DNA of 40,095 nt. It comes from a virus. The notes under the pieces are model-generated. The model searched no databases. It was not told the DNA's origin and saw only the letters and a list, made by a program, of their open reading frames with translations. The position numbers were made by a program, and so were the translations under genes. Location: positions 1 through 40,095 of the IMG/VR virus record IMGVR_UViG_3300027796_000021; one strand, 5' to 3'. Below, one piece after another: positions 4,487 to 40,095 of the stretch (position 1 is its first letter; every line of letters begins with the position of its first letter).

Positions 4487-4759
4487 TTATTCCTCGAAGT
4501 TTTCAGAGCCACCATCCAAAGTATATATAACAATATTTGCAGAAGGTTTATCAAAAACATTCATCTCAGCCTTGTCCATGATTTCATTCATTGCAGTCGT
4601 TGTATTACTGGCAACATAATAAGCTCCATAGTTGATAGAAGCTGTTACAAGCTCACCCAATTTAGCATAAAGCATTCTATTATCTGAAATATCCTCAATT
4701 CCAGCCTCTTTCAAAACATCTTTAAATTTAACATCAATCTCATCAACAAACTTATTCAT
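4487..4759 (-). CDS. hypothetical protein, 90 aa
   Basis: I do not recognise this protein. It is acidic and mostly helical: an N-terminal DEIDVKFKDVLKEAGIED helix, a middle GELVTASINYGAYYVAS helix, and a C-terminal strand IVIYTLDGG with an acidic tail. ATG at 4759 follows GGAGG by 6 bases and overlaps the stop of the preceding gene by one base (TGATG). A TTG one codon earlier is less likely. It is the last gene of the unit starting at 9139-9166. Confidence 0.72.
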   Translation of the reverse strand: MNKFVDEIDVKFKDVLKEAGIEDISDNRMLYAKLGELVTASINYGAYYVASNTTTAMNEIMDKAEMNVFDKPSANIVIYTLDGGSENFEE

Positions 4760-5301
4760 CAAATTCCTCCAGTTTCTATATTCTTAATTTTAATAAACTC
4801 AAAAACATCATAATCTTTCCAAAAGCTCATGGGTCTGCTTTCTGGATTTCTACCGTCAAACATATTGCACCCATTTTTCAGCCATATTGATTTAAATGAT
4901 TTGGAATCCTCTGTCTTACTTCCGATTATAGGGAAGTATCCAGTTTCTTTTTCATACTGCTTAGATAACTTTCTCTTTTCCTCTTGAGCAATATCCAAAG
5001 GTTTATCTTTAAAATCATTTTCAGACATTACTATATCAACATTATCCTGTTTCTTTATAAACTCCTTGACTTTATCAGAATCCAAAGATAGATCAATATA
5101 CATTAAGCAAATATCTGGATAAAGCAATTTTGAAATATACAAGAGAACGATACTTGCTTTATCTCCTGAGAATGAGATATATACATTTCCTTTATAGTAT
5201 ATATGCCATTCTGTAATCCTCGCTATGGTAAACCCAACCTTCCTTTCCAATGGAAGTGCTTGCAATTCCTTTAATCGTTTATTCGGAGCCTCGATTTTCA
5301 T
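4759..5301 (-). CDS. PAPS-reductase-like ATP-pyrophosphatase, 180 aa, short at C-terminus
   Basis: This protein has the adenosine-nucleotide alpha-hydrolase (PP-loop) fold of PAPS reductase and phage relatives. The loop at residues 43-50 reads SFSGDKAS, a variant of SGGKDS. Further on come GYFPIIGSKTEDS, NGCNMFDGRNPESRPMSFW and DVFEFI, the usual order in phage PAPS-reductase-like proteins (activate-substrate region, then W-x-x-DVxxYI helix). The protein stops about 10 residues after that helix, so the C-terminal part carrying the reductase Cys is missing and sulfate reduction is unlikely. A role in nucleotide or DNA modification is possible. ATG at 5301 follows GAGAGG and overlaps the upstream gene by 23 bases. 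Confidence 0.8.
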   Translation of the reverse strand: MKIEAPNKRLKELQALPLERKVGFTIARITEWHIYYKGNVYISFSGDKASIVLLYISKLLYPDICLMYIDLSLDSDKVKEFIKKQDNVDIVMSENDFKDKPLDIAQEEKRKLSKQYEKETGYFPIIGSKTEDSKSFKSIWLKNGCNMFDGRNPESRPMSFWKDYDVFEFIKIKNIETGGI

Positions 5302-5596
5302 TTAAGTTACCTCTCAATTTCTTCTTCGCGACTTTCAGAAGAATCAAATATCCGAGCAAATCTTCCTCAATATCCTCATCATCATCATCTTGCCTATTCA
5401 TCATTCGGTTAATTTTATCATCAATACGAACTTTGATTTGTTCTACAGAATCAGCCTTTGAGAAACAGCGGATAGGATTTACAGCAGAATCCCCATACTT
5501 ACGATTCTTCTCAAGAAGGAATTTACAAATATCCTTACAAACATCCTGAATCAATTTCTGTGTATCTGTCACTGTAACACTTTTCTCATTTTCCAT
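5279..5596 (-). CDS. DUF1599/Nmad1 MazG-like protein, 105 aa
   Basis: The core is FLLEKNRKYGDSAVNPIRCF, then VEQIKVRIDDKINRM, then an acidic run (DDDDEDIEED) and LLGYLILL. This matches DUF1599 (nucleotide modification associated domain 1), an all-alpha relative of MazG-type NTP pyrophosphohydrolases. The acidic side chains before LLGYLILL and the RIDDK segment would be the metal-binding and helix-core positions. Such proteins are often found in phages with nucleotide-pool or base-modification genes, and here it sits next to the PAPS-reductase-like gene. AAAGGGA lies before ATG at 5596. Confidence 0.82.
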   Translation of the reverse strand: MENEKSVTVTDTQKLIQDVCKDICKFLLEKNRKYGDSAVNPIRCFSKADSVEQIKVRIDDKINRMMNRQDDDDEDIEEDLLGYLILLKVAKKKLRGNLNENRGSE

Positions 5597-5598
5597 TT

Positions 5599-5748
5599 TT
5601 ATTTCCCTTTATATCCGCTTGAGTAAATTGCTGCCTGTTGTTTCATAGCTTTTTGTTTAGCACCCTTCCCACAATAAGTTTTTCCACTACTTCCCCATTT
5701 GAAACAATCTGACCTACCACCTTTTCCAGTAGTTTTATGAACAGGCAT
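5599..5748 (-). CDS. small basic phage protein, 49 aa (KWGxSGKTY family)
   Basis: Starting at ATG 5748, which follows GAGGAG, the product opens MPVHKTTGKGGRSDCFKWG, then SSGKTYCGKGAKQKAMKQQA and AAIYSSGYKGK. Small phage proteins with the same KWG-x-SGKTY...AIYxSGYK pattern are common and uncharacterised. An upstream extension of the frame is rejected because it would run through the previous gene without a ribosome site. It is very basic, so nucleic-acid binding is possible. Two cysteines (DC and YC) are not seen in the simplest versions of the pattern I remember. Confidence 0.75.
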   Translation of the reverse strand: MPVHKTTGKGGRSDCFKWGSSGKTYCGKGAKQKAMKQQAAIYSSGYKGK

Positions 5749-5749
5749 T

Positions 5750-6286
5750 TTAATTCTCCTCTTTTTTAAGTTTATAATTATATACTTCAATATAATCAGG
5801 AATATCAAGATTATATTTTTTAATATTCTCAAGCCTAGTATACTCCCACTCTTTAATGGAGTTATACAAGGATTGAATTATAAGCATTCTTGTATTTGGA
5901 TTTGACATATTCTTGAGATTCTCATCCATCCACGTAAGGTTTGTCTTGAATACTGATAGATAGCTTACCCAAGCATAACCAGAATCTGTGTAAATCGTAT
6001 AATTTCGTTTTACATAATCAATTTCCCAATCACTCTTGAAAACAAAACATTTTCTCAACTCTCTCCGGTTATCAATATCTGCATCTCCAACTCTTATGAA
6101 ATCATTCACAATTTCTTGCAAATCATATGATCCATTAAATTTTTTAAGCGAGTTGAATTCTACAGCAGAACAAAGAAGGTCTTTATCAACTACGACTACT
6201 CCTTCTGGAAGTTCATGATTAAGTATCAAAACAACTTGTTTATCACCTAGAGTGTAAATTTTATTCAATTCTACTTGGCTAATCAT
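5750..6286 (-). CDS. hypothetical protein, 178 aa
   Basis: I do not recognise this protein. It is mixed alpha/beta with many aromatic residues and no Cys pair beyond scattered single cysteines. The C-terminal third (NPNTRMLIIQSLYNSIKEWE...) is helical. There is no membrane segment. ATG at 6286 follows AAAGGA, and the stop lies one base before the start of the 49-residue gene, so coupling is likely. Confidence 0.75.
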   Translation of the reverse strand: MISQVELNKIYTLGDKQVVLILNHELPEGVVVVDKDLLCSAVEFNSLKKFNGSYDLQEIVNDFIRVGDADIDNRRELRKCFVFKSDWEIDYVKRNYTIYTDSGYAWVSYLSVFKTNLTWMDENLKNMSNPNTRMLIIQSLYNSIKEWEYTRLENIKKYNLDIPDYIEVYNYKLKKEEN

Positions 6287-6288
6287 AT

Positions 6289-6774
6289 TTATCCTTTCTG
6301 ATTACAAGGTTTAAATTCTCCACAAATCCCATTCCGATATTTGCACATAGGAATCATAGCATCACTTAATTCAGGATCAATTTCATGAATTTTATCTTTT
6401 AATTCACTCATAAATTCACGAGTCTTATCTTCGGCCTTATTGCAAAGCCTTTTATGTGACCAATCCATAATATGTTGTGCATTGAACATGAAGAACATCT
6501 TCCTTATGGAATCTCTTGTATGAGTTTTTGCAGAGCCAATATCAGGTCTGCCAGATTCGATCAAGAACAAAGCACCATTCTTATCATGAGTCCTCATCTG
6601 CATGGCAACACTATAGGGAACTTCACAAAAGCAAGCATACCATTGAGTTCTTATAGGAGTATGACCAGATTTGATCCACTTTGCATAAGATGCTTTCATC
6701 TCTACTCCAAATACAAATTCAACAGCTTCTTTCATGAGAGAAATATCAGTAACTTTTTTAACTACAATGTTCAC
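6289..6774 (-). CDS. thyX: ThyX-like protein, 161 aa
   Basis: It resembles phage versions of flavin-dependent thymidylate synthase. RTQWYACFCEVPYSVAMQMR leads into THDKN, then ESGRPD, then the helix FNAQHIMDWSHKRLCNKAED and DPELSDAMIPMCKYRNGICG. The NxQHxxDxSxKRLCxKA segment corresponds to the ThyX N-x-R...R-L helix. The canonical RHRxxSxxExSxR signature is altered (MRTHDKN, ESGRPD) and the length is below the usual 210-250. It may be a substrate-specialised relative (for example a deoxynucleotide methylase or hydroxymethylase) or inactive. The start is GTG at 6774, overlapping the previous stop. Family call good, activity uncertain. Confidence 0.7.
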   Translation of the reverse strand: MNIVVKKVTDISLMKEAVEFVFGVEMKASYAKWIKSGHTPIRTQWYACFCEVPYSVAMQMRTHDKNGALFLIESGRPDIGSAKTHTRDSIRKMFFMFNAQHIMDWSHKRLCNKAEDKTREFMSELKDKIHEIDPELSDAMIPMCKYRNGICGEFKPCNQKG

Positions 6775-7082
6775 TTATCAGTTTCAACCTTCTTATGATT
6801 TTTTTCGAAAATATCAGGTGAATTGGCATAAAATTCTCCATAAGCACCTTTAATAATAAAATCACCTTGAACTGCAAGATGATCTCCTTCAAATGTATGA
6901 AGAATCAATCCAATACGCTGGTCAGTAAGGTTTTCATCCTTGAAGGGATTATCAGAATATTCTGAACTATTTTTTCTTACCCACACACCTTTTCCAAAGG
7001 CGGCTGGACTTACAAAATTGCAAATCTCTTCCCAAGTATTCCAATCAAGTTTAACAGCTTCAACAGCAACCAAATATTTCAT
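6771..7082 (-). CDS. hypothetical phage protein with GDxIIKGxxGEFY motif, 103 aa
   Basis: The segment ILHTFEGDHLAVQGDFIIKG then AYGEFYANSPDIFEKNH is a pattern found in many small phage proteins, loosely PGDYG-like, of unknown role. The N-terminus (MKYLVAVEAVKLDWNTWEEI) is strand then helix. ATG at 7082 follows AAGGAG, and the end overlaps the ThyX-like start by four bases, showing tight coupling. Confidence 0.75.
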   Translation of the reverse strand: MKYLVAVEAVKLDWNTWEEICNFVSPAAFGKGVWVRKNSSEYSDNPFKDENLTDQRIGLILHTFEGDHLAVQGDFIIKGAYGEFYANSPDIFEKNHKKVETDK

Positions 7083-7096
7083 TTCAAATTTTCTCC

Positions 7097-7432
7097 TTAT
7101 TTTTCAAGTTCTTCAGTCAACTCATTCAATCTTTTCTGCAAATCTTCATTTTCCATATATTCAAAATTAAAGGGCTTATCATATTTCTCACATCTGAGCA
7201 ATGGAACAAAAGTTCCATACGGAACACCTGTATTCCAATGAAGTTCAGAATCTATGAAAGTTGTTTGGAACTTATATCTTTCTCCATAAAATTTTCCATC
7301 CACATAAAAAGCTACATCAAAGTTCCTGCCAATCCCTGCATAAATATATCCATCTTCACATGAATCAATGGGAATCAATTCACCAGATTTATTATATTCT
7401 TCTAAAACTTTCATATACAATTCTTTACTCAT
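7097..7432 (-). CDS. hypothetical protein, 111 aa
   Basis: The product is unknown. It has an N-terminal helix (ELYMKVLEEYNKSGE), a beta-rich middle (YIYAGIGRNFDVAFYVDG) and a C-terminal coiled-coil-like helix (NEDLQKRLNELTEELEK) that suggests oligomerisation. ATG at 7432 follows GAAGGG, which overlaps the stop of the dUTPase-like gene only a few bases upstream. Confidence 0.72.
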   Translation of the reverse strand: MSKELYMKVLEEYNKSGELIPIDSCEDGYIYAGIGRNFDVAFYVDGKFYGERYKFQTTFIDSELHWNTGVPYGTFVPLLRCEKYDKPFNFEYMENEDLQKRLNELTEELEK

Positions 7433-7437
7433 GATAT

Positions 7438-7842
7438 TTACCCTTCATCCTTAATAAAAAATACTTCTGGAATTTTATGAACAATACCTTGAAGAATCTT
7501 ATCACCCTTTTTGATTGTATAACTATACAATCCATAATTTATAAGAAGAGCTGTAATTTCTTTTTTATTATTTGAATGAATTACTTCAATTCCATTTGCA
7601 AGTCCAATCCAGTTACTGAAGGAAATATCAGGACGAATAATCACTTCCATATTATATCCTTCAGGAAGTTCAACATAAACTCCTGTATGAACATGTTGAA
7701 CAGATCGTGCAGGAATAATAACAGTTTCAGAAGAGAATAAATCCCATCCATGTTCACTTGTCAATTTCTTAGGAATTGGAATTTCACATCCTTCGACAAA
7801 GCTATATTTAATCCTTACTTTTTTCTTAAAATCAAAAAACAT
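7438..7842 (-). CDS. dUTPase-fold protein with degenerate catalytic motifs, 134 aa
   Basis: The motif order of a trimeric dUTPase is visible: HGWDLFSSE (motif 1, Asp kept), EVIIRPDISFSNWIGLANG (motif 2, RPD in place of RSS), GIEVIHSNNKKEI (motif 3, His where the catalytic Asp of VIDxDYxGEI normally is) and KGDKILQGIV (motif 4, GDRIAQ). The glycine-rich C-terminal motif 5 is absent. It therefore keeps the fold but probably not dUTP hydrolysis. It could bind nucleotide or signal, or use another substrate. AAGGAG lies before ATG at 7842. Confidence 0.82.
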   Translation of the reverse strand: MFFDFKKKVRIKYSFVEGCEIPIPKKLTSEHGWDLFSSETVIIPARSVQHVHTGVYVELPEGYNMEVIIRPDISFSNWIGLANGIEVIHSNNKKEITALLINYGLYSYTIKKGDKILQGIVHKIPEVFFIKDEG

Positions 7843-7843
7843 T

Positions 7844-8062
7844 TTAAATCATCTCCTTAACATAAACTAGTGCATCTTTACCACAAAAGAACGAACCATC
7901 CACTTCAATGATAGGCAAACTCTTCATTCCGCTTTTATTTGCAATCTCAAGTGCCTCTGGCGAGGATACATCATAAACAGTATACTCTTTACCCTTAGAA
8001 TTCAAAGTAAGTTTAACATACTTGCAAATGCCACAGGAAGAGCTTGTAACTAGATTAATCAT
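7844..8062 (-). CDS. glutaredoxin-like protein, 72 aa
   Basis: It has a thioredoxin fold of minimal length. The N-terminal strand leads into SSSCGICKYVK (active site Cys10 and Cys13), then a helix, then GMKSLPIIEVDG with the cis-Pro loop and a final helix. The size matches NrdH/phage glutaredoxins. It is a cytoplasmic dithiol reductant. Class III reductase (nrdD downstream) uses formate instead, so the partner may be a host reductase or another thiol enzyme in this cluster. GAGAGG lies before ATG at 8062. Confidence 0.88.
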   Translation of the reverse strand: MINLVTSSSCGICKYVKLTLNSKGKEYTVYDVSSPEALEIANKSGMKSLPIIEVDGSFFCGKDALVYVKEMI

Positions 8063-8077
8063 TTATACCTCTCTTGT

Positions 8078-8326
8078 TTAAAATTTAATATTATCCAATT
8101 CAGTAATACACTTCTTGCACAAGGTTGCATCATGATGCCTTTTCTTATATCCGCAATCCAGTTGAATTGCATATTCAGAATGACACCTATCACATAGGAA
8201 GGGAGTATCACTTGATTCAATAAACATCCTTTTAATAACTTTTACCTTCCCATCCAGTTCATCTTTTACAAAACACTCATCAAAAGCACATTGAAAATTA
8301 CCACTTTCTTCACAAACTTTAATCAT
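8078..8326 (-). CDS. cysteine-rich putative zinc protein, 82 aa
   Basis: The pairs LCDRCHSEY and LCKKCITEL are separated by about 20 residues containing DCGYKKRHHD. This is consistent with a two-knuckle zinc ribbon (C-x2-C...C-x2-C) in the C-terminal half. Two further Cys lie in the N-terminal third. No enzymatic motif is seen. GGAG lies before ATG at 8326, and the end of the preceding gene overlaps this start. A small nucleic-acid or protein-binding adaptor is likely. Confidence 0.72.
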   Translation of the reverse strand: MIKVCEESGNFQCAFDECFVKDELDGKVKVIKRMFIESSDTPFLCDRCHSEYAIQLDCGYKKRHHDATLCKKCITELDNIKF

Positions 8327-8571
8327 ATTTCAACTCCGCTACAATTTGAATCTGTCAATGCAGAATAATACCCGTTAAAAAAAGCATCATACTCTTTCAG
8401 CTCATATCCGTTAATCAGATAATCCCGTTTTGTAATGATATGCTCAATATAATCATTCACACTGGATTTCTTTGCATAACGGTTGCAAGATTGCTGAATC
8501 CTTACTTCCAGCTCATGAACTCCTCCACAAGCTTTGCAAATCTCATAAATTGTTTTTTTATCTTCTTCCAT
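8323..8571 (-). CDS. hypothetical protein with N-terminal CxxC, 82 aa
   Basis: It contains ICKACGG near the N-terminus (a single zinc knuckle), followed by a helix (EVRIQQSCNRYAKKSSVNDY) and an aromatic-rich C-terminal half. The function is unknown. AGGAGAG lies before ATG at 8571. Its 3' end overlaps the next start by four bases. Confidence 0.7.
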   Translation of the reverse strand: MEEDKKTIYEICKACGGVHELEVRIQQSCNRYAKKSSVNDYIEHIITKRDYLINGYELKEYDAFFNGYYSALTDSNCSGVEI

Positions 8572-8595
8572 TATCTCTCCTATATAAAAGTTTAT

Positions 8596-9111
8596 TCAGG
8601 CTATAAAATTGTTTTTACAAATCTCAATGGTCATGATTTTGAATACCCACTCATTAATCACACTGTTGATATAGTAATCAGAAGTTATGAACTCCTTATA
8701 ATCAAAATAATCCCATCCAACATGATTCAAAACGAGGCTCAATCCAATGGCAACAGAGCGTGACATTCCTTTAAAGCAGTTGATATGCAGTAACATATGA
8801 TTAGTATCGTATACTTTATGATGAGCTATTAAATTAGCCGAAACAAAATTGTAAACATCATCAGCCATATTCTTATTGAACAATACAGGATTTCTTGTCA
8901 GAAATTCATTTTCATAGTAAGGATGGCAGAGATGATTATCAATCAGAAATGGAGTTACATCATCAAACTGAAGATTCAGAACATTATACTCAGCAGGAAC
9001 TACACTCTCATATCCAATATCATAGACACTGATGATTGGTTCATTGTGGGGAATTGTATGATTATTTACTGCCTCCTCCATCTCTTTTCTCGAATAAATT
9101 TTTATTCTCAT
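8596..9111 (-). CDS. tyrosine/dual-specificity phosphatase-like protein, 171 aa
   Basis: The P-loop NCFKGMSRSVA fits the CX5R(S/T) signature of cysteine-dependent phosphatases (Cys112, Arg118), preceded by the usual hydrophobic strand (MLLHI). An Asp-rich turn (FDDVTP, about 50-54) could supply the general acid. The N-terminus has SRKEMEEAVNN and a VYDIGYES segment typical of phage dual-specificity phosphatases. The start is ATG at 9111, because AAGGAG lies 8 bases upstream. A GTG 36 bases earlier lies inside the -10 box and cannot be used. As the first gene after the early promoter it would be made immediately. It may act on host phosphoproteins or on a small phosphorylated substrate. Confidence 0.8.
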   Translation of the reverse strand: MRIKIYSRKEMEEAVNNHTIPHNEPIISVYDIGYESVVPAEYNVLNLQFDDVTPFLIDNHLCHPYYENEFLTRNPVLFNKNMADDVYNFVSANLIAHHKVYDTNHMLLHINCFKGMSRSVAIGLSLVLNHVGWDYFDYKEFITSDYYINSVINEWVFKIMTIEICKNNFIA

Positions 9112-9138
9112 CAATCTTCTCCTTTCTTTTCTTGATGT

Positions 9139-11247: not shown

Positions 11248-11275
11248 TTGACTTTTAGAATTTGAACTATATATT
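11248..11275 (+). promoter_or_regulatory. rightward promoter P2
   Basis: TTGACT (11248-11253), 16-base spacer, TATATT (11270-11275). It lacks the TG of the extended -10 seen in the other rightward promoters. It drives the 166-residue gene and the heptosyltransferase-like gene. The -35 lies just after the stop of the upstream gene. Confidence 0.75.
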
Positions 11276-11301
11276 ATACAAAAATTAGAAAGGAAAGTAT
11301 T

Positions 11302-11802
11302 ATGAGCATTATGAAGTTTGAAGAGTTTAAGAAGGAAGTAAGTATTCTTGAAATGAGTTATTTGTGTTACAAGCAAGTTTCAAAAGTAGAGCAACGAACA
11401 GAAGAAGAATATCAATCAATAATTCTTGTTCAAAATTCTATTCGTATTGTAGCAGAGGATATTTGTTTCAAGCTTGGGGATGTTAATAAGATTTTTCTTT
11501 ATTGGGTATTTTCTGGTGAATTTGGAACAAAAGAAGAGAACTTGAATTTTTCTTCTGGAAAGAATATTCCTTCTGATTTGAAAGAACTTTATGATGTTTG
11601 TTGTAAATCTGATAAACCAGATTTGGAAGATTGGGATTCTATTTTGGAAAGTTATGTTGTTCCATTCGATTTGAATGAAGTTGCTAAAAATATTTTGAAG
11701 AATATTCCATATGAAACTTCTTATAAAGTTGTTTCTGATCTTTCCAAAGATTTTGCACTTAAAATGATTATGACTTATCAGACAAAATATTTGAAGGATT
11801 AA
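11302..11802 (+). CDS. hypothetical protein, 166 aa
   Basis: I do not recognise this protein. It is mostly helical and acidic, with no Cys pairs and no membrane segment, opening MSIMKFEEFKKEVSILEMSY. Helical stretches include EYQSIILVQNSIRIVAED and LSKDFALKMIMTYQ. A single-base gap separates its stop from the next start, so it is coupled to the heptosyltransferase-like gene, and a partner or regulator role for that enzyme is possible. AAAGGAAAG lies before ATG at 11302. Confidence 0.75.
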   Translation: MSIMKFEEFKKEVSILEMSYLCYKQVSKVEQRTEEEYQSIILVQNSIRIVAEDICFKLGDVNKIFLYWVFSGEFGTKEENLNFSSGKNIPSDLKELYDVCCKSDKPDLEDWDSILESYVVPFDLNEVAKNILKNIPYETSYKVVSDLSKDFALKMIMTYQTKYLKD

Positions 11803-11804
11803 TA

Positions 11805-13148
11805 ATGACTCCTGAAAAACTTAAGCAGATGGAAGAAAAAGGATTGGTTTTCATTGATCCTTCAAAAGTCTATAATTATGGTTCGTCCAGTGTATTTGTT
11901 GGTGATATTCCTCGATATAATGCTTTTGGAATGGTTTATTATGATTTCCTTAACGGATTGAGGATTATCTCTCTGGATCAGGATAATGAATATGATTATG
12001 AATTGTATGATGATTTTACAAATACTCTTATCAGTCGTGGAGTTTTGATTAAGAATGGAAAATTGGAAAGCCGTAGACGGCATTTTGTAAAATATAGGTT
12101 CAGGATTCTGAAAGAAGGAAAACTTCTATTCGAGCATACTATGGATTTGAAAGGAAAGAATGTTGTTATTTCTCTTCCTTTCTATAGTGGTATTGGAGAT
12201 GATATTGCTTGGTTCTCTTCGGTTCCAGAATTTCAGAAGAAGAATAAATGTCATGTTACAGTAGTTATGAAGTCTCTTACATCTCTCCTTTTTCAGAAAC
12301 AATATCCTGAGATTAAATTTGTTGAGAAAGTTGATACTACCAAAGAAGATTTCTATGCTATGTATATTCTGGCTCTTGACCAGAATCAGGATAATAAAGT
12401 AATGTTGGAACTTCCATTTGATTGGAGATTCGCAGGATTTGCAAATAGCATCCCCTATGCTCTTGGACTGATGGGTAATGTTCTTACCAGAGCAAAAGTT
12501 GATCTTTCTGCTCCGAGAATGATTAAGGATAAATATGTTTGCATTTCAGCAAAAGCGTCTAATGTGCAGAAACAATGGAATAATCCTAAAGGATGGAATT
12601 CTGTTATTTCTTTTTTGAAAAATGCTGGATATAGAGTTTTTATTATTGATGCTTCTAATAATGCAGATGAACAGACTTCTCCTTCTACCTGTCATTTTCC
12701 TGATAATGGAGCAGAAGATTTTACAGGTAAACTTCCATTGCAGGATAGATTGAATCTTATTAAGGATGCTGATTTCTTTATTGGATTATGTAGTGGGTTG
12801 TCTTGGCTATCTTGGCTTGCTAAAACTCCTACTGTTGTAATAGGAGGATTCTCTCATCCAGAAAACGAGTTTAAGACACCATACAGGGCAATTAACTGGC
12901 ACTTCTGCAATAGTTGCTGGTCTGATAAAATGCAAGCAGGATGCAAGCAGTTGGAAATTGAAGAAATCAAGCCTGAAGATATTTGTCCTAAGCATTTTAT
13001 GACTCCTCAAATGTTTCAATGCTCTGGAAGAATTACTGCTGAGCATGTGATTAATATTATTAAAACTATTCCAGAATTCAATGGAAAGATTTCTAGTGGA
13101 AGAAAAGAATTTAAGAGAGGATTGAAGAGCATAGAAATTAATAAATAA
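11805..13148 (+). CDS. BAHT-like heptosyltransferase (TibC/GT9-type), 447 aa
   Basis: It resembles the bacterial autotransporter heptosyltransferase (BAHT) family, such as TibC, which transfers heptose from ADP-heptose onto protein serines and binds iron through four Cys. The first Rossmann-like domain has SLPFYSGIGDDIAWFSSVPE at 123-142 (GIGD pattern). The second has ISAKASNVQKQWNNPKGW at 247-264 and GLCSGLSWLSWLAKTPTVVI at 327-346. The metal-site Cys are probably CNSC (368, 371), DICPKH (394) and FQCSGRIT (406), with Cys380 extra. The N-terminal 110 residues form a strand-rich accessory region. It may glycosylate a virion protein or a host surface protein. GAAGGA lies before ATG at 11805. 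Confidence 0.85.
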   Translation: MTPEKLKQMEEKGLVFIDPSKVYNYGSSSVFVGDIPRYNAFGMVYYDFLNGLRIISLDQDNEYDYELYDDFTNTLISRGVLIKNGKLESRRRHFVKYRFRILKEGKLLFEHTMDLKGKNVVISLPFYSGIGDDIAWFSSVPEFQKKNKCHVTVVMKSLTSLLFQKQYPEIKFVEKVDTTKEDFYAMYILALDQNQDNKVMLELPFDWRFAGFANSIPYALGLMGNVLTRAKVDLSAPRMIKDKYVCISAKASNVQKQWNNPKGWNSVISFLKNAGYRVFIIDASNNADEQTSPSTCHFPDNGAEDFTGKLPLQDRLNLIKDADFFIGLCSGLSWLSWLAKTPTVVIGGFSHPENEFKTPYRAINWHFCNSCWSDKMQAGCKQLEIEEIKPEDICPKHFMTPQMFQCSGRITAEHVINIIKTIPEFNGKISSGRKEFKRGLKSIEINK

Positions 13149-13305: not shown

Positions 13306-13377
13306 ATCTAATTTTTTCAGATTTCGGTTTGATTTATGAAAAATTTATTATATATTATATCACATGAAGGAGTTCAA

Positions 13378-13857
13378 ATGATAAACATTTTTGATATAGG
13401 GATTACATGGAAAGAGGCTCCAATGTCCTCTTCTGGAAGTTTAACTGTTTTTGTAGGATTTCCAAATAAGAGTTGCAGATTTCATTGTGATGGATGTTCT
13501 TGGGGAAAAGATGGAGAGAAGCCTATTGGAGAACCTTTGAGTTTGGAGAAATTCAGAGATATTCTTAATAAGAAAAGAAAGTATACGGATTTTGTATGTT
13601 TTCTTGGAGATGGTGGTTGTGGAGAGAATCTTATTGAATATTTGAGAATTGTAAAAGAATATGGAATGAAAACTTTATTGTATACCGGAGGAAAGGTTGA
13701 TGATTATAGTAAGGAAGTTTTGAAAGCTCTTGATTGGATTAAAACAGGGAGATGGGAAGGGAAGAGTCTGGAAGATGTAAATACTAATCAGAAGATTTTT
13801 AAATTGGCTGATGGGAATATTATTGGCATTGAGAATTATAAAGCTTATTATGTATAA
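13378..13857 (+). CDS. nrdG: anaerobic ribonucleotide reductase activase NrdG, 159 aa
   Basis: Radical SAM activase for NrdD. SCRFHCDGCSW carries CX3CX2C (Cys33, 37, 40), which binds the 4Fe-4S cluster and SAM. Then come EPLSLEKFRDIL, CFLGDGGCGENL (a GGE-like SAM-amino segment) and GMKTLLYTGG. The length is typical of NrdG. The start is ATG at 13378, because AAGGAG lies 5 bases ahead. An upstream in-frame ATG at 13336 has no ribosome site. The order nrdG then nrdD is the reverse of the usual nrdD-nrdG. The enzyme requires anoxic conditions, so the host is probably anaerobic. Confidence 0.9.
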   Translation: MINIFDIGITWKEAPMSSSGSLTVFVGFPNKSCRFHCDGCSWGKDGEKPIGEPLSLEKFRDILNKKRKYTDFVCFLGDGGCGENLIEYLRIVKEYGMKTLLYTGGKVDDYSKEVLKALDWIKTGRWEGKSLEDVNTNQKIFKLADGNIIGIENYKAYYV

Positions 13858-13878: not shown

Positions 13879-15885
13879 ATGAGTGATGAAGAGCAAGTTG
13901 AGCAGGAGATTAATTGTTTTGAAGCAGATGCAAAAGCGGCTATTACAAGAAAAAATATTACATATAAATTGAAAAAACATTTGAAAGAGAAATATAATAA
14001 GGAAGAATTGACAAATCCTATTCTGAAAGAACAGGGGATTGATCCAAAGAGATTTAATATTCTTGCTAATATTGAGAATTTCATGCTTGGGAAGATTGCA
14101 GATATTTCTGTTGATCCAAACGCAAATAAAAATGAAGTGAATTCTGAAGCTATTATTCAAGAAGCATTTAATCCTATCAGAAAGCTGTATGGAGCTGATA
14201 TTCTTTATCGTGAAATGAAATCCATGTATGGAAAAGAAGAAGCAGACAGGCTTTCCATGCTTATGTATGATTATTCTCTATATCTTGCAGATAGTACCAA
14301 AGTGGAACGTGTTTATTGTTGGGCCATGTCTACAAACTTTCTTGTGCAGGAAGGGCGTAATTTTGGAGTAGCACCCTCTACTCCTGCCAGAAGGTTGGAT
14401 TCTTATATCGGAGCTGTTTGTGAGATGCTTCATCAGCTTAGCAATCATACTGCCGGAGCTATTGCACTTTCTACTTTATTCATTGATTGTGCTTCTATTC
14501 TTATGTCTTATAAAGGGATTCTTGGAGAACCTGTTTCCTATGAAGATATTTGCAATGATCCGGTAATTAGAAAACGCATTGAAAATGAAATGCAGAGTTT
14601 GATCTATTCTTTGAATTTTTTATCTAGGTCTGGATGTGAACCTCCGTTTAGCAATGTTACGCTTTCAGATGATGCTAAACTTGCAAAAATGGCTGAAGAT
14701 TATCAATATCAATTTACAAAGCCAGATGGAACTGAATTTTCCATTGACGAGATTGTGAAATATACTCTGGAAGTCCAGAAACTTTATGTAAAGGTTTTTA
14801 ATGCTGGAAATATTTCTCAAGGAGGAACGCAATTCAGATTTCCAGTTACTACCTGTGCTTTTACAAAACTTTCAACTGGTGAAGTTTCAGAAACTTCTTG
14901 GTTTAGATGGATGATTGATAATGCAGATATGACTAGGTATAATATTTTTATTTCTGAAGGAGATAAGCAATGTTCCTGTTGCAGACTTATTAATGACGGG
15001 GAATTGCTTAAGCAGGGAAGTCAAATATCTTCTTTGGGAAATGTTACAGTTTCAATGGGATCAATTCGAGTAGTCACTGTAAATTTTATGCGCCCTGCTT
15101 TAATGGCTAATACTATTGAAGAGTTTTGGAAGATTTTTAATGAAAACATTCATTCAACTGCAAAGATTCTGAAAGCACATAGGAGCCTTATTCAAAGACT
15201 CACAGATGCAGGACTTCAGCCTTTCATGAATAAGATTTTTTCAATGGATCGTTTGTTCAGCACTTTTGGATGTGCTGGTATTGTAGAGTGTGCAGAAACT
15301 CTTAAGAAGAAGTTTAATATCCAAGGGGATGTTATGCGTGATTTGCTTTCTTTCTTTAAGGATAAAAGCAACATCTATTCTAGAGAATTGAATTTTCCAA
15401 ATAATTCTGAATTTGTACCCGGAGAAACTCTTTGCTGGAAGCTTAGTAAAGTTGATGCAATTATTTTTGGAAAAGAAAATCAGCCATATACAATGTATTC
15501 CAATCAATTTGTTCCGCTTTGGAAGAAAGCTTCCATTTATGAACGTCTGGAAGAAGCAGGAGACTATGACTTGTTGTTTAGCGGAGGTGCAATCACACAT
15601 GCACAGATTAATGAAAAGATTAGTAAAAAGCAAGCAGAGCATATTATTAAATTTGCGGCAAAATGCAATAATCAACACTTTGCCATTAATACAATAATGA
15701 CATACTGCGTTAATAATCATTATACTCAGGGAAAACATGATAAATGCCCTGAATGTGGAGGAGAGGTAAAGGATTATTATACAAGGATTGTTGGATATTT
15801 TATTCCAATTTCTGCCGCAAATAAGATTCGCAGGGAATGGGAATTTCCTCGTAGAACATTTGTGGATGTTCCTGAAATTGAGTAA
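13879..15885 (+). CDS. nrdD: anaerobic ribonucleoside-triphosphate reductase NrdD, 668 aa
   Basis: Class III reductase that converts NTPs to dNTPs using a glycyl radical and formate. Visible points: HQLSNHTAGAIALSTLF (about 190-206), QGGTQFRFPVTTC with the substrate-site Cys, CSCCRL, and a C-terminal zinc finger region with CVNNHYTQGKHDKCPECGG. The glycyl-radical loop RIVGYFIP has Gly639 as the likely radical site, 30 residues from the end. I see no obvious N-terminal ATP cone. The length is near that of T4 NrdD (about 605) plus an extension. Its activase lies directly upstream. Confidence 0.93.
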   Translation: MSDEEQVEQEINCFEADAKAAITRKNITYKLKKHLKEKYNKEELTNPILKEQGIDPKRFNILANIENFMLGKIADISVDPNANKNEVNSEAIIQEAFNPIRKLYGADILYREMKSMYGKEEADRLSMLMYDYSLYLADSTKVERVYCWAMSTNFLVQEGRNFGVAPSTPARRLDSYIGAVCEMLHQLSNHTAGAIALSTLFIDCASILMSYKGILGEPVSYEDICNDPVIRKRIENEMQSLIYSLNFLSRSGCEPPFSNVTLSDDAKLAKMAEDYQYQFTKPDGTEFSIDEIVKYTLEVQKLYVKVFNAGNISQGGTQFRFPVTTCAFTKLSTGEVSETSWFRWMIDNADMTRYNIFISEGDKQCSCCRLINDGELLKQGSQISSLGNVTVSMGSIRVVTVNFMRPALMANTIEEFWKIFNENIHSTAKILKAHRSLIQRLTDAGLQPFMNKIFSMDRLFSTFGCAGIVECAETLKKKFNIQGDVMRDLLSFFKDKSNIYSRELNFPNNSEFVPGETLCWKLSKVDAIIFGKENQPYTMYSNQFVPLWKKASIYERLEEAGDYDLLFSGGAITHAQINEKISKKQAEHIIKFAAKCNNQHFAINTIMTYCVNNHYTQGKHDKCPECGGEVKDYYTRIVGYFIPISAANKIRREWEFPRRTFVDVPEIE

Positions 15886-15920
15886 ATTATTTAAAAATTA
15901 GCAATTATTTTTTAAATAAT
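15886..15920 (+). terminator. AT-only hairpin after nrdD
   Basis: ATTATTTAAAAA (15886-15897) pairs with TTTTTAAATAAT (15909-15920), 12 bp around an 11-base loop directly after the nrdD stop. It has no GC pair and no separate U-run, so termination is weak or uncertain. Promoter P4 starts three bases later. Confidence 0.4.
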
Positions 15921-15922
15921 AC

Positions 15923-15950
15923 TTGATTTTTAAAAAAGATGTGCTATATT
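15923..15950 (+). promoter_or_regulatory. rightward promoter P4, extended -10
   Basis: TTGATT (15923-15928), 16-base spacer, TATATT (15945-15950) preceded by GTGC. It drives the glycosyltransferase-terminase-portal unit. Confidence 0.85.
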
Positions 15951-15976
15951 ATATAGTTAGAGAGATTATAGGTTAA

Positions 15977-16025
15977 GCAAGAGTATGTCACCTACCACGA
16001 TTATACTGTGGTTAAAAACTCTTGC
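15977..16025 (+). promoter_or_regulatory. structured leader before the glycosyltransferase
   Basis: GCAAGAGT (15977-15984) pairs perfectly with ACTCTTGC (16018-16025), enclosing ACCAC (15994-15998)/GTGGT (16008-16012) with a 9-base loop. The plan, an outer stem around a 5-bp, 9-base-loop hairpin, is the same as in the P1 leader, though the sequence differs. No U-run follows. Confidence 0.55.
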
Positions 16026-16082
16026 ATAATTTAATAATGGATTCTTTGTGTAAAGTAATAGTTTGTTTAATTTTGGAGAGTT

Positions 16083-17159
16083 ATGTTAAAAAATAAATAT
16101 CTTTTTGCTTCTTCTTATTTAGGAAATGGAGCAGTATCATTTTATAGAAGCAGAGCCGTTACAGCTATTCTCTCTTCAGCTTATGGAGATTCTGCCATTT
16201 TTAATGAAAGTGGTTCTTTTATTAAGGATATTGAATTTTTGACATATTGTGATAATATACGATTGCAGAGAGTTGCTTTGGATATGTGCACAAATTACTT
16301 TGATAAAGTAAAAGCACTATCCAATGAACTTGGTTTTTCTGTGATTACGGATTATGATGATATTATGTTTGCCGATGATTTTCCAGATTATAATGAATAT
16401 AAGGATTCTTATAAACAAATAAAAGATGAAACGGTTAAACATTTTATGGAAGGTTCAGATATAGTAACCGTTACAACTGATGTGCTTGCACAATACTATT
16501 CCAAACGGCTGAATCTTGACATTAAGAAATTTAAAGTAATTGATAATTACCTTCCTGCATTTTGGGGAAACGGATTATATGACACAGAAAAAATCTCAAA
16601 AAGATACAGTGATTTTCATAGACACCCCCGAATTCTTATCTCATGCTCTAGTTCTCATTTTTGTAATAATGGACTTGCTGATAATTGTGATGACTTTGAT
16701 AGCACATTGGATTGGATCATAGCAAATAAGAATAAATATGAATTCTTTATTCAAGGAGGAAGCAATAAGCGTTTAAGAGATTGCGGAGCTGATATTAAAT
16801 TTGTAAAATCTCAAAATGTTTATAATTATTTGTACAGCCGGGATTCTGTGGAGCCTCTTCTTTATATTCAGCCTTTGAAGGATTGTATATTTAATAGATG
16901 TAAGAGTGCAATAAAACTTTATGAAGCTGATAAATCTGGTATTCCTATTTTGCTACAGGATATTCCTCCGTATCAAGGAAAGACAGACCTTCTATTCACC
17001 AATGGAGACGATTTGAATACTCTTGCAACTCGATTGTTCAGTGATAAGGAGTTCTATATGGATCAGGTTAAGAAAGCCCGTGACAGGTCTTATAATCAGA
17101 TTTTGGAAACTCATGCAGATGAATGGGTAAATGTTATGAAGAGGAATTTTCAAAAATGA
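16083..17159 (+). CDS. GT-B type glycosyltransferase-like protein, 358 aa
   Basis: The sequence has the pattern of a phage GT-B enzyme. It starts with SYLGNGAVSFYRSRA. TDYDDIMFADDFPDYNEY and GSDIVTVTTDVLAQYYSKRL precede a linker, VIDNYLPAFW. The second domain has HPRILISCSSSHF and PLLYIQPLKD, then an NRCKSAIKLYEADKSGIPIL segment that fits the sugar-nucleotide pocket of GT4-like enzymes. Donor and acceptor are unknown. With the BAHT-like enzyme one unit upstream, it may extend a glycan on the same target. It lies immediately before terS, with ATG/TGA overlap. GGAGAG lies before ATG at 16083. Confidence 0.72.
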   Translation: MLKNKYLFASSYLGNGAVSFYRSRAVTAILSSAYGDSAIFNESGSFIKDIEFLTYCDNIRLQRVALDMCTNYFDKVKALSNELGFSVITDYDDIMFADDFPDYNEYKDSYKQIKDETVKHFMEGSDIVTVTTDVLAQYYSKRLNLDIKKFKVIDNYLPAFWGNGLYDTEKISKRYSDFHRHPRILISCSSSHFCNNGLADNCDDFDSTLDWIIANKNKYEFFIQGGSNKRLRDCGADIKFVKSQNVYNYLYSRDSVEPLLYIQPLKDCIFNRCKSAIKLYEADKSGIPILLQDIPPYQGKTDLLFTNGDDLNTLATRLFSDKEFYMDQVKKARDRSYNQILETHADEWVNVMKRNFQK

Positions 17160-35411: not shown

Positions 35412-37325
35412 ATGGCGAATGACATTATAGTTTATTATGAAATAAACTCAGGAAATTTATATGATGTAAACGGAACCCTCTTCGGAAATAATAATCTGAG
35501 CATGTTCCTTGATACTCATTCCGTGATTGAGCTTCATTATGTAACTGAAGTAACTTCTTCTGAAATTCCTTCTGAATGGACTGAATGGACAGGAGTTGCA
35601 GGATTGGGAGTTTCTTCTGAAGCTTCCATTGATGATAATTATCTTCATGCAATTCGTGGAACGCTTACCACCGCCATTGCAATTAATGATACCACAGTTG
35701 CAACAACCGCTACAATCGATACTGCCGATGTAAACCCTGCTGGAACCATTACGTGTATTAAAGCCGATGGAACTACTGTTTCTTTTGCTTATACTTCCTA
35801 TGTTGCAACCGCTACGACTGTTATATTTACTCTGGCTGAAGCTTCTACAGTTGCTGTTGCCACTTCGGGAACGGTTGTTCGAATTCCTGAAGCATTGTTC
35901 ATGAAAACTTCTGGAACTGATATTGATAATACTTCTTCTGATACGGGTATTTTTAAAATCTCTCTTTATGCACTTTCTCATAAACTTTTGAATTCTCTTG
36001 ATTATGCTAATACTGCTTCTATTGAAGGGATTTTTCAGCATAAGATTGTAGATGCCGGAGAAACAATCAATACTTTTGAATTCCCATTCAAAATTATAAA
36101 TGTTCTTGATTATGATAATGATATTACACTCCCTTCTCAAACAGGGGATTATGCAAGTAAGACTTGGGCTTTGTCCTTTTTGAATGCTCCTCTTGTTTAT
36201 CAATATAGTGCTGACGGAACTAATTTTCATGCTACTCAAGCTTCTACAGATATTTATTATCAGCAAAAGTTTGATAATGTAGATGCTACATGGTCTGCTA
36301 CAATGCAGTTGCTCAGGGGAAATGTTGGTTACGGATATTCTGTTCCTGCTGTTTATGCCGCCGGAACTACTTATAATCCAGTATCTGTTTCAAATCCTAT
36401 TTATGCAGTAGTTTTGAATCAGGATTGTTCATGGGTATTTATAAGTTCTTCTGCAAGCACGGGAAATGCACCTCCGACTCTTCCGACCACCAGTAATGCT
36501 TATTGGACATTGTTTGCAAGTGCCGGAACTGATTCTTATACTTACTATGCTTATGCTTCAGATGCTTCTGGAACTAATTTTTCACTTACTCCTAGCAATT
36601 CTCTTCTTTATATTGCACAAATCAATGTGAATCTTCCTATAGCAACTCCTACGATTACCGATTTTGCTTCTGCAACTTGGGTAAAATATTTAGGAACAAA
36701 CGGTTCTGACGGAGCACTTATTACTCTTGGTTCAGCGGCTGTAAGTTTTACTACGACAAATACTGCCGGAGTTGTTACTTCCACTCTTGGAACTGTTTCG
36801 GAAGATTATTTTACAATTACTTTTACTAAAACCCAACTTGGCGGGATTACTGATGAATGCGAATTTGATTTGAGTGATGCTAGCGGTTATAATATCAGTG
36901 CAGATTCTCGAATCTCTTTTCAATGGGCTAGCAGTTCATTGTTGGTAAAGTATTCCTCAGGAACTGATTCATGGCCCTCTGCGTCTTGGACGCTGAAGCC
37001 CAAGGGTATTAGAGGAAGAGATGGGTATATTTATGACCGGGTTACAGTTGCAGATAATACTATTACTGCAACGCTTGTTCCTCAGGATTTTTATTGGACG
37101 GCAGTTTCAGCCGCAACTCTTGTATTTGATTTTTCCGCTGTTTCTACAAAAGATACAACCATTCTTTTGAAAATAACAATGCCCTCTCCGGTTGTTTCTT
37201 TTACATGGCCCATTATTACATGGCTTGATGGAAGTGCTCCTGATATGTCTGTGGCTGGAATTTATTGGGTAACTATTCATAATGATGCTAATGGTTTGTA
37301 TGGAAATCTAGCGAAAGGATTATAA
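35412..37325 (+). CDS. large tail fibre protein, 637 aa
   Basis: It is rich in Thr, Ala, Ser and Gly, with many short strands and an alternating pattern typical of fibre shafts. The N-terminal region (YYEINSGNLYDVNGTLFGNN) would attach to the tail. The middle (about 300-385) has GYGYSVPAVYAAGTTYNPVS and AYWTLFASAG, a small carbohydrate-binding-like module seen in many phage fibres. The end has VYWVTI-like strands (MSVAGIYWVTIHNDANGLYG). No enzyme motif is seen. AAGGGGGA lies before ATG at 35412. Next gene begins at its stop. Confidence 0.75.
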   Translation: MANDIIVYYEINSGNLYDVNGTLFGNNNLSMFLDTHSVIELHYVTEVTSSEIPSEWTEWTGVAGLGVSSEASIDDNYLHAIRGTLTTAIAINDTTVATTATIDTADVNPAGTITCIKADGTTVSFAYTSYVATATTVIFTLAEASTVAVATSGTVVRIPEALFMKTSGTDIDNTSSDTGIFKISLYALSHKLLNSLDYANTASIEGIFQHKIVDAGETINTFEFPFKIINVLDYDNDITLPSQTGDYASKTWALSFLNAPLVYQYSADGTNFHATQASTDIYYQQKFDNVDATWSATMQLLRGNVGYGYSVPAVYAAGTTYNPVSVSNPIYAVVLNQDCSWVFISSSASTGNAPPTLPTTSNAYWTLFASAGTDSYTYYAYASDASGTNFSLTPSNSLLYIAQINVNLPIATPTITDFASATWVKYLGTNGSDGALITLGSAAVSFTTTNTAGVVTSTLGTVSEDYFTITFTKTQLGGITDECEFDLSDASGYNISADSRISFQWASSSLLVKYSSGTDSWPSASWTLKPKGIRGRDGYIYDRVTVADNTITATLVPQDFYWTAVSAATLVFDFSAVSTKDTTILLKITMPSPVVSFTWPIITWLDGSAPDMSVAGIYWVTIHNDANGLYGNLAKGL

Positions 37326-38149
37326 TGCCCTCCCCTTATATTATAAATCCTTTTGGAGTAAAATATGCATTAGGAAATGTTTCAGCATTTCTTGTGCAGA
37401 TTACTGCTTCTGATATTACAAATTCAACAGCAGTTCATTCCTTTAATCTTGTTGGAGCATCTGGCTGTGTAATACGTTGGGGAGATAGTGTAGAGACTTC
37501 ATGGACTACTGATGCATTATATTCTCACACTTATACAAAAGCTGGAACTTATTTAGTCCAGATTAAAGGACCTCATACACGTTTTTATCATCAAGGGGGA
37601 ACTCCTACAAAAGTTATTGAAGCTATGAAGCTTTACACAGGAATAACAAGTGGTCAAGCTACTTGGTATGGTTGTACTAATCCTTTGTTTCATCTTCATC
37701 CTTTATATCGCTTTCATTCGGGAATTACTACTCTAGCTAACCATTTCATAGGTTGTACTGGTAATGGATTTAAACTTGTTGAAGGATTGTCTTTACCAGC
37801 TTCTTGCATAAGTATATATCGAATTTGTTATGGAGATAGTGGTAACGGGTTTACATCTTTACCTAGCACTTTTGTATTTACTCCCCAATGTTTTGAAAAT
37901 ACTGGTGCTTTTTATGGGGCTACAAAATTGACCTCGGATATAAGTAATAAATTTCCAACCTATACAGCCAATTCTTCTGTAAGTTTTTATCAAACTTTTT
38001 ATAATGCAAAGATTACAGGAACTGCACCGGCAAATAAATTATGGGGAAGAACTGATATTACATGGACTCCCGGAGGTGCTTTTACAGGAGCTACAACTTT
38101 AACTAATTATACATCCATTCCTGCTGCTTGGGGTGGAGGAGGAGCCTAA
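37325..38149 (+). CDS. fibre protein with PKD-like domain, 274 aa
   Basis: Residues about 45-90 (CVIRWGDSVETSWTTDALYS, then HTYTKAGTYLVQIKG) match a PKD-type beta sandwich: W-G-D-G-like turn and HxYxxxGTYxVxI. The rest contains repeated short blocks with FxGATxL elements (GAFYGATKLTSDI, GAFTGATTLTNY), similar to BspA-like surface repeats. It probably contacts the host surface. The ATG overlaps the end of the preceding fibre gene. Confidence 0.72.
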   Translation: MPSPYIINPFGVKYALGNVSAFLVQITASDITNSTAVHSFNLVGASGCVIRWGDSVETSWTTDALYSHTYTKAGTYLVQIKGPHTRFYHQGGTPTKVIEAMKLYTGITSGQATWYGCTNPLFHLHPLYRFHSGITTLANHFIGCTGNGFKLVEGLSLPASCISIYRICYGDSGNGFTSLPSTFVFTPQCFENTGAFYGATKLTSDISNKFPTYTANSSVSFYQTFYNAKITGTAPANKLWGRTDITWTPGGAFTGATTLTNYTSIPAAWGGGGA

Positions 38150-38151
38150 TC

Positions 38152-38532
38152 ATGCCTTATGCAAAAATTGTGAATAATAAAATAGTTTACCCACCTCATA
38201 ATGATGGAAATAAAGTAAATGTCCATGAAGATTTGACATGGCTTTCTGAAAATGGATTTACTATAATGAGTGATGCTGAAATTGCTCCTTATATTGTTAA
38301 TGAAACTCCTGAATATTATACTCAACGTCAAATAAGACTTGCTATGAGAGCTTTGGGGATGGAAACATTATTGGATTCTATTCTAGATTCAGATGCTATA
38401 ATTAAGCGCGATTGGCTTGAGGCTCAGGGTATTGATTTTAATAATTCTACAGTGATTTCTGCTATTACTGAAGCTGGAATTACTAGTGAGCAAATTACTG
38501 CATTGAAAAATAAAATTTTGGAGACATTATGA
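38152..38532 (+). CDS. small fibre-associated protein, 126 aa
   Basis: The N-terminus (PYAKIVNNKIVYPPHNDGNK, then VHEDLTWLSENGF) resembles tail fibre assembly/chaperone proteins (YAKxxNxxIxxPP). The middle helix RQIRLAMRALGMETLLDS and the C-terminal helix EAGITSEQITALKNKIL would form a helical tail. The start is ATG at 38152 with GGAGGAG 8 bases upstream, which lies in the end of the PKD gene; an earlier ATG at 38128 is not supported. It overlaps the LamG fibre by four bases. Chaperone of the next fibre is a reasonable guess. Confidence 0.7.
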   Translation: MPYAKIVNNKIVYPPHNDGNKVNVHEDLTWLSENGFTIMSDAEIAPYIVNETPEYYTQRQIRLAMRALGMETLLDSILDSDAIIKRDWLEAQGIDFNNSTVISAITEAGITSEQITALKNKILETL

Positions 38533-40004
38533 GCAAGAAAATATTTGGAATTAAATCTGGTGGTGAAACAGTTCTTTTGCAAGTTGATACTTCGACAAAG
38601 ATTACTGAATATAGTTTGGACGGAGTTACATGGACTCAGACTATGCTTGCAAATGCTACTACTGAAGTTGCAGGATTGATGTCCTCAACAGACAAGACAA
38701 AACTTGATAATCTTTTAGTTGGATATAAAGGATATTATGCAACCAGTGCAGCATTGATTTTTGCTCATGCAACAGGGGTTGATGGAGATTTTGCAAGTGT
38801 CGGAGCTGCTGATACTCTTTGGGCTTGGGACTCTGATACTTCTGCTTGGGTAAATACTGATAGCAATACTATTAATCCTACTTGGGAAAGTGTTACTGGA
38901 AAACCAACTTTTGCAACTGTTGCAACTAGTGGAAGCTATAGTGATTTGAGTAGTAAACCTACTCTAATTACAAGTTATGATGATCTGACAGAAAAACCTA
39001 TTGATCTTTCTAATTATGGTGCAGAATCAGAAGGGCATTATACAAGATTTGGATATTCAACGGGCGGGATTGACGAATATACTTCTGCATGTTTTCATTT
39101 TGATGATTCTTTAGTGGATTCTACCGGACATATTACTGGAGGAACAGTTACTGGAACAACTACCTATGCAAATGGTAAATTTGGAAATACATTCAGTTTT
39201 GATGGATCAACAGTTTTGAAATATACAAAAAATCAAACTTATGATGGTTTTACAAGTTCAGATAAAATTACTTGTGATTTCTGGATTAATACAACAGACA
39301 CAACCGCCTCAGGGGCATCTCCATTTTGTAAAAATGGATATGATGTTAATAGATTTTATTTTTATTTAAGATCAGGTGTTTTGAGTTTTGAAGTTTATGA
39401 AAGTGGCTGGGTGTCTTTCGCAATTGGTTCTGTTAGTGATGGAGCATGGCATCATGTTACGCTTACCTATGATGGAACTTCCTCTTCTGCATTGAAAACA
39501 TATCTTGATGGTAATCTGATTACTTCAACAACACATTCAATTTCTTCTTCTGAAGGAGAGGATGGATTTATTTTTGGAGATTACGGATTTATTGGTAAAG
39601 TTGATGAATTAAGATTTTCAAAAGGAATTATTAGATGGACAGGAAATTTCACCCCTCCAGTGCTTGCATATAGCACAGGTATTTCTAAAGCGTTGTATGT
39701 AGATTCTAAAAGCCTTGAAGAAAATATTTCTGATGTTGTTGCCTCTTCAGAAACTACTGTAACAAGTACTTATACAGCAGATTATGATACTGCAACTATT
39801 CATCGAATTAAAACAACTGCTTCAACAGCTTGTACATTAACTGTTCAAGATATTCCTTCTGGAAAATCTTTGATAATCCGTGTTGATAATTCAGCGGCAG
39901 GAAGTGTTTCTTTTGGAGCAGATGAATGTATTTCCACTTCTCAAACAGGGATTAAATTTCTTACTTTTGTAAATGTAACAGGAACTATTGAATGGGTTCA
40001 TTGA
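38529..40004 (+). CDS. tail fibre with LamG/concanavalin-like domain, 491 aa
   Basis: Residues about 130-165 hold the fibre-type motif TSGSYSDLSSKPTLITSYDD (GSYxDLxxKP) found before folding domains. A lectin-like domain follows at about 185-365, with ACFHFDDSLVDSTGH, KITCDFWINT and GAWHHVTLTYDGT leading to LKTYLDGNLI, the LamG jelly-roll signature. The C-terminal part (TVTSTYTADYDTATIHRIKT) is another beta module. It would bind host surface sugars. GGAG lies before ATG at 38529. Confidence 0.85.
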   Translation: MSKKIFGIKSGGETVLLQVDTSTKITEYSLDGVTWTQTMLANATTEVAGLMSSTDKTKLDNLLVGYKGYYATSAALIFAHATGVDGDFASVGAADTLWAWDSDTSAWVNTDSNTINPTWESVTGKPTFATVATSGSYSDLSSKPTLITSYDDLTEKPIDLSNYGAESEGHYTRFGYSTGGIDEYTSACFHFDDSLVDSTGHITGGTVTGTTTYANGKFGNTFSFDGSTVLKYTKNQTYDGFTSSDKITCDFWINTTDTTASGASPFCKNGYDVNRFYFYLRSGVLSFEVYESGWVSFAIGSVSDGAWHHVTLTYDGTSSSALKTYLDGNLITSTTHSISSSEGEDGFIFGDYGFIGKVDELRFSKGIIRWTGNFTPPVLAYSTGISKALYVDSKSLEENISDVVASSETTVTSTYTADYDTATIHRIKTTASTACTLTVQDIPSGKSLIIRVDNSAAGSVSFGADECISTSQTGIKFLTFVNVTGTIEWVH

Positions 40005-40005
40005 T

Positions 40006-40095
40006 ATGAAAATTACACAAGCATTATTTGATTTTGGATCAGTTATTTCAGTTTCATATACCGGGAATCTTGTATTTTATCCTCCAATAACCGGA
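40006..40095 (+). CDS. partial gene running off the right edge
   Basis: ATG at 40006 directly after the LamG fibre stop (TGA 40002-40004). The frame is open for 30 codons to the end of the window: MKITQALFDFGSVISVSYTG then NLVFYPPITG. It probably continues the fibre/tail unit. Function is not visible. Confidence 0.7.
   Translation, partial: MKITQALFDFGSVISVSYTGNLVFYPPITG

Follow-up and report, generated by a model that had tools for sequence, protein, structure and literature searches.

A phage gene of the Aah/TibC (BAHT) glycosyltransferase family and its possible part in virion glycosylation

The heptosyltransferases called 'autotransporter' enzymes are familiar from bacteria, where they modify surface adhesins. 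In TibC, the iron ligands are Cys339/342/358/370, the catalytic base is Asp110 and the donor residues are Thr226, Lys230, Arg286 and Trp305; Pro300 determines stereoselectivity, and F265/V266/F368 serve ring assembly (PMC4358343). Among phages, mycobacteriophages glycosylate virion proteins, according to Freeman 2023 as cited in PMC12619734. We found no description of a phage BAHT in the literature, in a search that was thin on subscription papers.

We analyzed a viral sequence of 40,095 nt (IMG/VR record IMGVR_UViG_3300027796_000021, positions 1-40,095), hereafter the window, which carries the following gene:

11805-13148, + strand: BAHT-type (Aah/TibC-like) glycosyltransferase; ATG start, open frame, 447 aa

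A first-pass annotation of the window had assigned this gene to the BAHT/TibC family as opposed to ordinary GT9 LPS enzymes lacking the four Cys, and both profile searches and structure prediction bear this out. The ORF scores 355.4 bits (E 3e-106) against TIGR04414 ('autotransporter strand-loop-strand O-heptosyltransferase'; curated cut-off 200 bits), and a phmmer search of the PDB returns TibC (4rap/4rb4, E 2e-67; 38 % identity) and no other sensible match. An AF2 model of the enzyme (pLDDT 84, pTM 0.84) superposes on TibC with Z 43.1 and rmsd 2.1 over 376 residues. The next structural match is a Veillonella GT9 protein (Z 21.6), and GT9/WaaC/WaaF structures give Z about 19-22. Ahead of the GT-B core lies an N-terminal flattened beta-barrel, with strands between residues 22 and 112 in the model and an alignment to TibC from residue 29 on. 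A GT9 LPS-core heptosyltransferase picked up by the phage would fit the Pfam GT9 score of 41.7 bits, but the LPS models RfaQ and heptosyltransferases I and III reach only 22.6-29.3 bits against cut-offs of 170-467; together with the iron finger, the barrel and the gap in Z scores, this refutes such an identity at the family level and leaves it next to no probability. Profile scores, homology to a solved structure, the fold predicted by AF2 and the residues of the active site together identify the ORF as a diverged BAHT-family GT-B glycosyltransferase.

Alignment to TibC places the functional residues as follows:

12198-12200, + strand: codon of D132, aligned to TibC Asp110, within GIGDDIAWF (12189-12215)
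12558-12572, + strand: S252 to K256, aligned to TibC Thr226/Lys230 (donor beta-phosphate)
12651-12719, + strand: thumb region, with a longer polar loop in place of TibC F265/V266
12747-12806, + strand: R315 to W334, aligned to TibC Arg286/Trp305 (adenine and heptose contacts)
12906-13022, + strand: predicted iron finger with C368, C371, C394 and C406, aligned to TibC Cys339/342/358/370

The cysteines and GIGDDIAWF (residues 129-137) lie exactly where the first-pass annotation had put them. In an alignment of 61 homologues, all four predicted iron-finger cysteines are invariant, as is D132. K256 and W334 are likewise kept in 61/61 and R315 in 60/61, and position 252 is S in 48 and T in 13, making S252 a conservative Thr-to-Ser change relative to TibC Thr226. 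The finger holds about 9 extra residues between its two knuckles compared with TibC, and pLDDT block means in this region range from 50 to 90. At the position of the TibC stereoselectivity residue Pro300, the window enzyme has C329, a Cys unique among the S, G, P or A of its homologues. Of the residues serving ring assembly, TibC F368 is retained as F404. The hydrophobic thumb tip F265/V266, needed for TibC ring assembly and activity, is not kept, and a TibC-like dodecamer is therefore doubtful for the window enzyme.

We also considered the setting of the gene within the window:

11248-11278, + strand: promoter-like site TTGA-N-TATATTATA of the enzyme operon (motif search)
11302-11802, + strand: 166-aa ORF immediately preceding the enzyme gene, apparently in the same operon

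The enzyme gene comes second in what appears to be an operon of two genes; for the first gene, our searches gave neither a family nor a relative. The pattern TTGA-N18..22-TATATTATA occurs nine times in the window against 0.05 expected, always on the + strand (at 9220, 11248, 13233, 13329, 15923, 21230, 26418, 31114 and 35340), and 7/9 sites share the exact extended core GTGCTATATTATATA. Besides the site of the enzyme operon, there are sites ahead of the operons for nrd, terminase/portal, capsid, tape measure, tail and fibre genes. Judged by its sequence, this motif is a promoter-like class shared by the + strand operons of the phage, and because the enzyme operon and the structural genes have it in common, they are probably expressed together.

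Elsewhere in the window, 13336-13857 encodes an NrdG-like activator and 13879-15885 an NrdD anaerobic ribonucleotide reductase, both scoring below equivalog cut-offs; this diverged phage pair suggests an anaerobic host. A DRB0094-type RNA ligase is encoded on the - strand at 1896-2957 (TIGR02306 159 bits, just over the cut-off; PHROG 968).

The enzyme had been thought exceptional for a phage. This does not hold: two alignment-query scans of IMG/VR found at least 576 and at least 580 relatives, four phage records, Microcystis phage Mel-JY01 among them, match by tblastn, and one UniProt entry is already named 'Glycosyltransferase Aah/TibC [uncultured Caudovirales phage]'. Alignment queries were needed to detect these relatives; single-sequence queries gave no matches, either for the enzyme against viral and genome contigs or for the capsid protein against viral contigs. 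IQ-TREE places the window protein basal to the bacterial type, and a midpoint-rooted FastTree groups it with an aquatic phage clade. Its placement thus differs between trees, in all of which it forms a long branch; its identity (43 %) and the layout of its thumb bring it closer to the bacterial type. A long branch and an unconserved thumb tip would also fit a passenger gene that persists by chance and is decaying or inactive, but this is very unlikely, given that the frame is open over its full length, that the catalytic and iron residues are all intact and that the promoter-like site belongs to the class used by the phage itself.

A 205 kb viral contig (L092) carries two BAHT-type genes (7857-9125 and 14767-16113) flanking a 1186-aa protein without a Pfam match. 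In contig L088, a BAHT match at 8001-9101 (41 % identity) is spread over more than one ORF under table 11. In the Mel-JY01 record (L002), the gene at 4750-8430, annotated as methyltransferase FkbM, is a fusion ending in a BAHT-like domain (match 7360-8424).

The known acceptors of the enzyme are the repeats described by models TIGR04415/PF16168 (AIDA stalk), and proteins with these repeats adjoin the enzyme in related phages. In viral contigs L085, L086 and L091, a tail-fibre-like protein is followed by an acceptor-repeat protein of 487-730 aa and then by the enzyme, all on one strand, and the same order on one strand recurs in L178/L206 and L181/L215. Genes around these cassettes include tape measure, tail fibre and integrase matches. 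Among seven phage acceptor proteins scanned, PF16168 is well above cut-off in six and marginal in the seventh (L218), and none has an autotransporter beta-domain or ESPR signal; in L183, where a true autotransporter adjoins the enzyme, the same scan detected both barrel and ESPR signal. The phage acceptor proteins also have an N-terminal stretch and a C-terminal cap in common. Because no export domain was detected in them, we infer that they are most simply read as virion parts. Downstream of the cassette in L085, 11866-12990 encodes a probable reverse transcriptase, possibly of a diversity-generating element acting on a fibre; one unspecified member of the set of genes in its neighborhood matches PHROG 1423 (E 5e-98).

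The window has a fibre module of its own, at its far end:

35412-37325, + strand: tail-fibre-like protein, Ser/Thr-rich (phmmer 7e-25 to L085, 5e-71 to L205)
37325-38149, + strand: second fibre-module protein with weak PKD/BspA-like resemblance, in the place of the acceptor-repeat protein of relatives
38529-40004, + strand: third fibre-module protein with a Laminin_G_3/concanavalin-like domain, 27 % Ser+Thr
40007-40095, + strand: ORF cut by the contig end (sequence)

The first of these proteins is homologous to the fibre found ahead of the acceptor-repeat protein and the enzyme in related phages, and the window's fibre, portal and tape measure are all homologous to their counterparts in L085. 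As the first-pass annotation had noted, the fibres are Ser/Thr-rich, with 24.2, 22.3 and 27.1 % S+T in the three genes; proteins of at least 100 aa in the window average 13.9 %. The further proposal of that annotation, that the phage's own fibres are the target, is strongly suggested for the phage relatives by their cassettes; for the window itself it lacks the corresponding acceptor, as no TIGR04415 repeat was found in the 40,095 bases even at E 10, in a contig cut just past the fibres. Because the contig ends inside an open gene at this point, the fibre module may continue beyond the window. The second fibre-module protein is also present in a 29.5 kb record (L239) in which the enzyme was not found. 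Its AF2 model has pLDDT 43, and we therefore claim no fold for it. An N-terminal motif that it shares with the acceptor-repeat proteins was dropped as a sign of homology, being poorly kept in L239.

Among 24 viral records with the window's fibre domain, six carry both the enzyme and acceptor repeats and 18 carry neither, a count that is only indicative because three of the six were search seeds and some of the 24 records are near-duplicates; excluding the three seeds, the fraction is 3/21 (p about 7.5e-4, by our own count). A further scan, directed at acceptor proteins lacking a barrel, yielded seven records, each with the enzyme, but was discounted as circular, all seven being seeds.

The enzyme gene of the window is not part of the fibre module: some 22 kb separate it from the fibre genes, and it sits upstream of the terminase genes. 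This layout recurs elsewhere, with bacterial-type phage enzymes encoded ahead of terminase genes in L089 and L094 and within the head module in L090 and L095, all four without acceptor repeats. Because these four carry the enzyme in this way, the acceptor in the window may be of another kind, and perhaps no fibre.

Such an acceptor could belong to the host. Modification of a host surface protein, such as an AIDA-type autotransporter, might mask a receptor or alter adhesion and so lead to superinfection exclusion. Acceptor repeats are present in 13/14 bacterial genomes carrying the enzyme, its closest bacterial homologues belong to Lentisphaeria/Victivallales with repeats of this type, and the window shows no acceptor of its own, with the gene outside the fibre module. 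Against this, relatives with the same fibre family encode their own barrel-less acceptor, and the enzyme operon shares its promoter-like motif with the structural genes. G+C is 33 % in the window against 48-59 % in two Lentisphaeria loci, and the lack of a capsid protein homologue in 198 Lentisphaeria genomes is uninformative, as that search had no positive control. We regard a host-surface target as rather unlikely.

The more distant phage homologues bear on virion glycosylation as well. They lie near T4-like tail-sheath genes, in clusters of glycosyltransferase, methyltransferase, carbamoyltransferase and epimerase genes, and adjoin genes for Gly/Ser/Thr-rich or collagen-like (fibre) proteins. 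The window holds one further candidate of this kind:

16083-17159, + strand: possible second glycosyltransferase (PHROG 7162, E 6e-17), about 3 kb downstream of the enzyme

The first-pass annotation had placed a second glycosyltransferase nearby; the PHROG match agrees, but confirmation came neither from Pfam nor from a PDB sequence search. An enzyme with this fold and active site could instead use a different nucleotide sugar, or an acceptor other than Ser, as one step of a longer pathway for virion glycans in which this second gene may take part. The co-occurrence of distant homologues with GT4-type glycosyltransferase, epimerase, methyltransferase and carbamoyltransferase genes, the Cys in place of the TibC stereoselectivity residue and the divergence of the thumb would all be consistent with this possibility, which we nonetheless consider distinctly improbable given that the TibC donor-binding residues are kept with one conservative change.

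We read the glycosylation of virion proteins as the likely role of these phage-encoded enzymes in general, and as a plausible one for the window phage. By a modest margin of belief, we favor the view that the BAHT moves heptose from host-made ADP-heptose to Ser in a protein of the virion, with a Ser/Thr-rich tail fibre as the probable target, prior to lysis. ADP-heptose would bind in the GT-B cleft, where the residues for its binding are present, and D132 would then activate the acceptor Ser. The host would be the donor's source, since the window has no match to rfaE_dom_II, the one ADP-heptose-synthesis model searched, which is matched by 12/12 enzyme-bearing bacterial genomes tested. The acceptor, judged from relatives, would most likely be a Ser/Thr-rich virion protein, modified in the infected cell before lysis. 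For the window, we infer that the sugar is heptose, that the host supplies it and that it is attached to a virion protein. Virion glycosylation is supported by the cassettes with barrel-less acceptor-repeat proteins, the counts among fibre-bearing records, the homology of the window's fibre, portal and tape measure to those of L085, the sugar-modifying gene clusters and collagen-like proteins around the distant homologues, the motif common to the enzyme and structural operons, the ADP-heptose-synthesis match in the bacterial genomes and the precedent in mycobacteriophages; it is weakened by the missing acceptor repeat, the gap of ~22 kb, record L239, in which the enzyme was not found, the head- or terminase-side enzymes of L089, L090, L094 and L095, and the unconserved thumb tip.

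More tentatively, and with the balance leaning against it, tailed phages may have turned bacterial adhesin heptosylation into a tail-fibre system that combines fibres of AIDA-type strand-loop-strand repeats with a phage BAHT, which would heptosylate them as the cell dies. The window would then represent a branch with the enzyme relocated away from the fibre module, the thumb contacts of the TibC ring lost and a virion acceptor without repeats. If phages do heptosylate their own fibres, this would be a route for sugar-coating virus particles; it would suggest that bacterial adhesins and phage fibres have traded both the enzyme and its acceptor repeats, and many phage genes that now lack annotation, that in the Mel-JY01 record among them, would gain a function open to testing.

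Compared with described systems, the window enzyme has the GT-B core and probably the ADP-heptose donor type of the GT9 LPS enzymes WaaC, WaaF and RfaQ, which lack the iron finger and the N-terminal barrel and give lower structural and HMM scores. Mycobacteriophages likewise carry glycans on virion proteins (Freeman 2023, cited in PMC12619734), but there the acceptors, per that citing text, are capsid and tail tube C-termini. With TibC/AAH (BAHT; TIGR04414; PDB 4RAP, 4RB4), the enzyme shares the N-terminal beta-barrel, GT-B core, four-Cys iron finger, catalytic Asp and ADP-heptose contacts (38 % identity, Z 43.1). It differs in being phage-borne, in its longer polar thumb tip without F265/V266, in the roughly 9 extra finger residues and the Cys at the Pro300 position, and in having no adjoining acceptor repeat. 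The BAHT-like domains of aquatic phages (Microcystis phage Mel-JY01, jumbo phages LR756501/LR756504 and many IMG/VR contigs) are alike in iron finger and catalytic residues, but show 27-34 % identity and another thumb motif, and are often fused to or beside GT4 and FkbM-type genes. Finally, the cassettes in L085, L086, L091, L178, L181, L175, L177 and L218 hold an enzyme of the same family, and their upstream fibre is homologous to 35412-37325 of the window; in them the enzyme gene follows the AIDA-repeat protein in the tail module, whereas the window has it ahead of the terminase genes.
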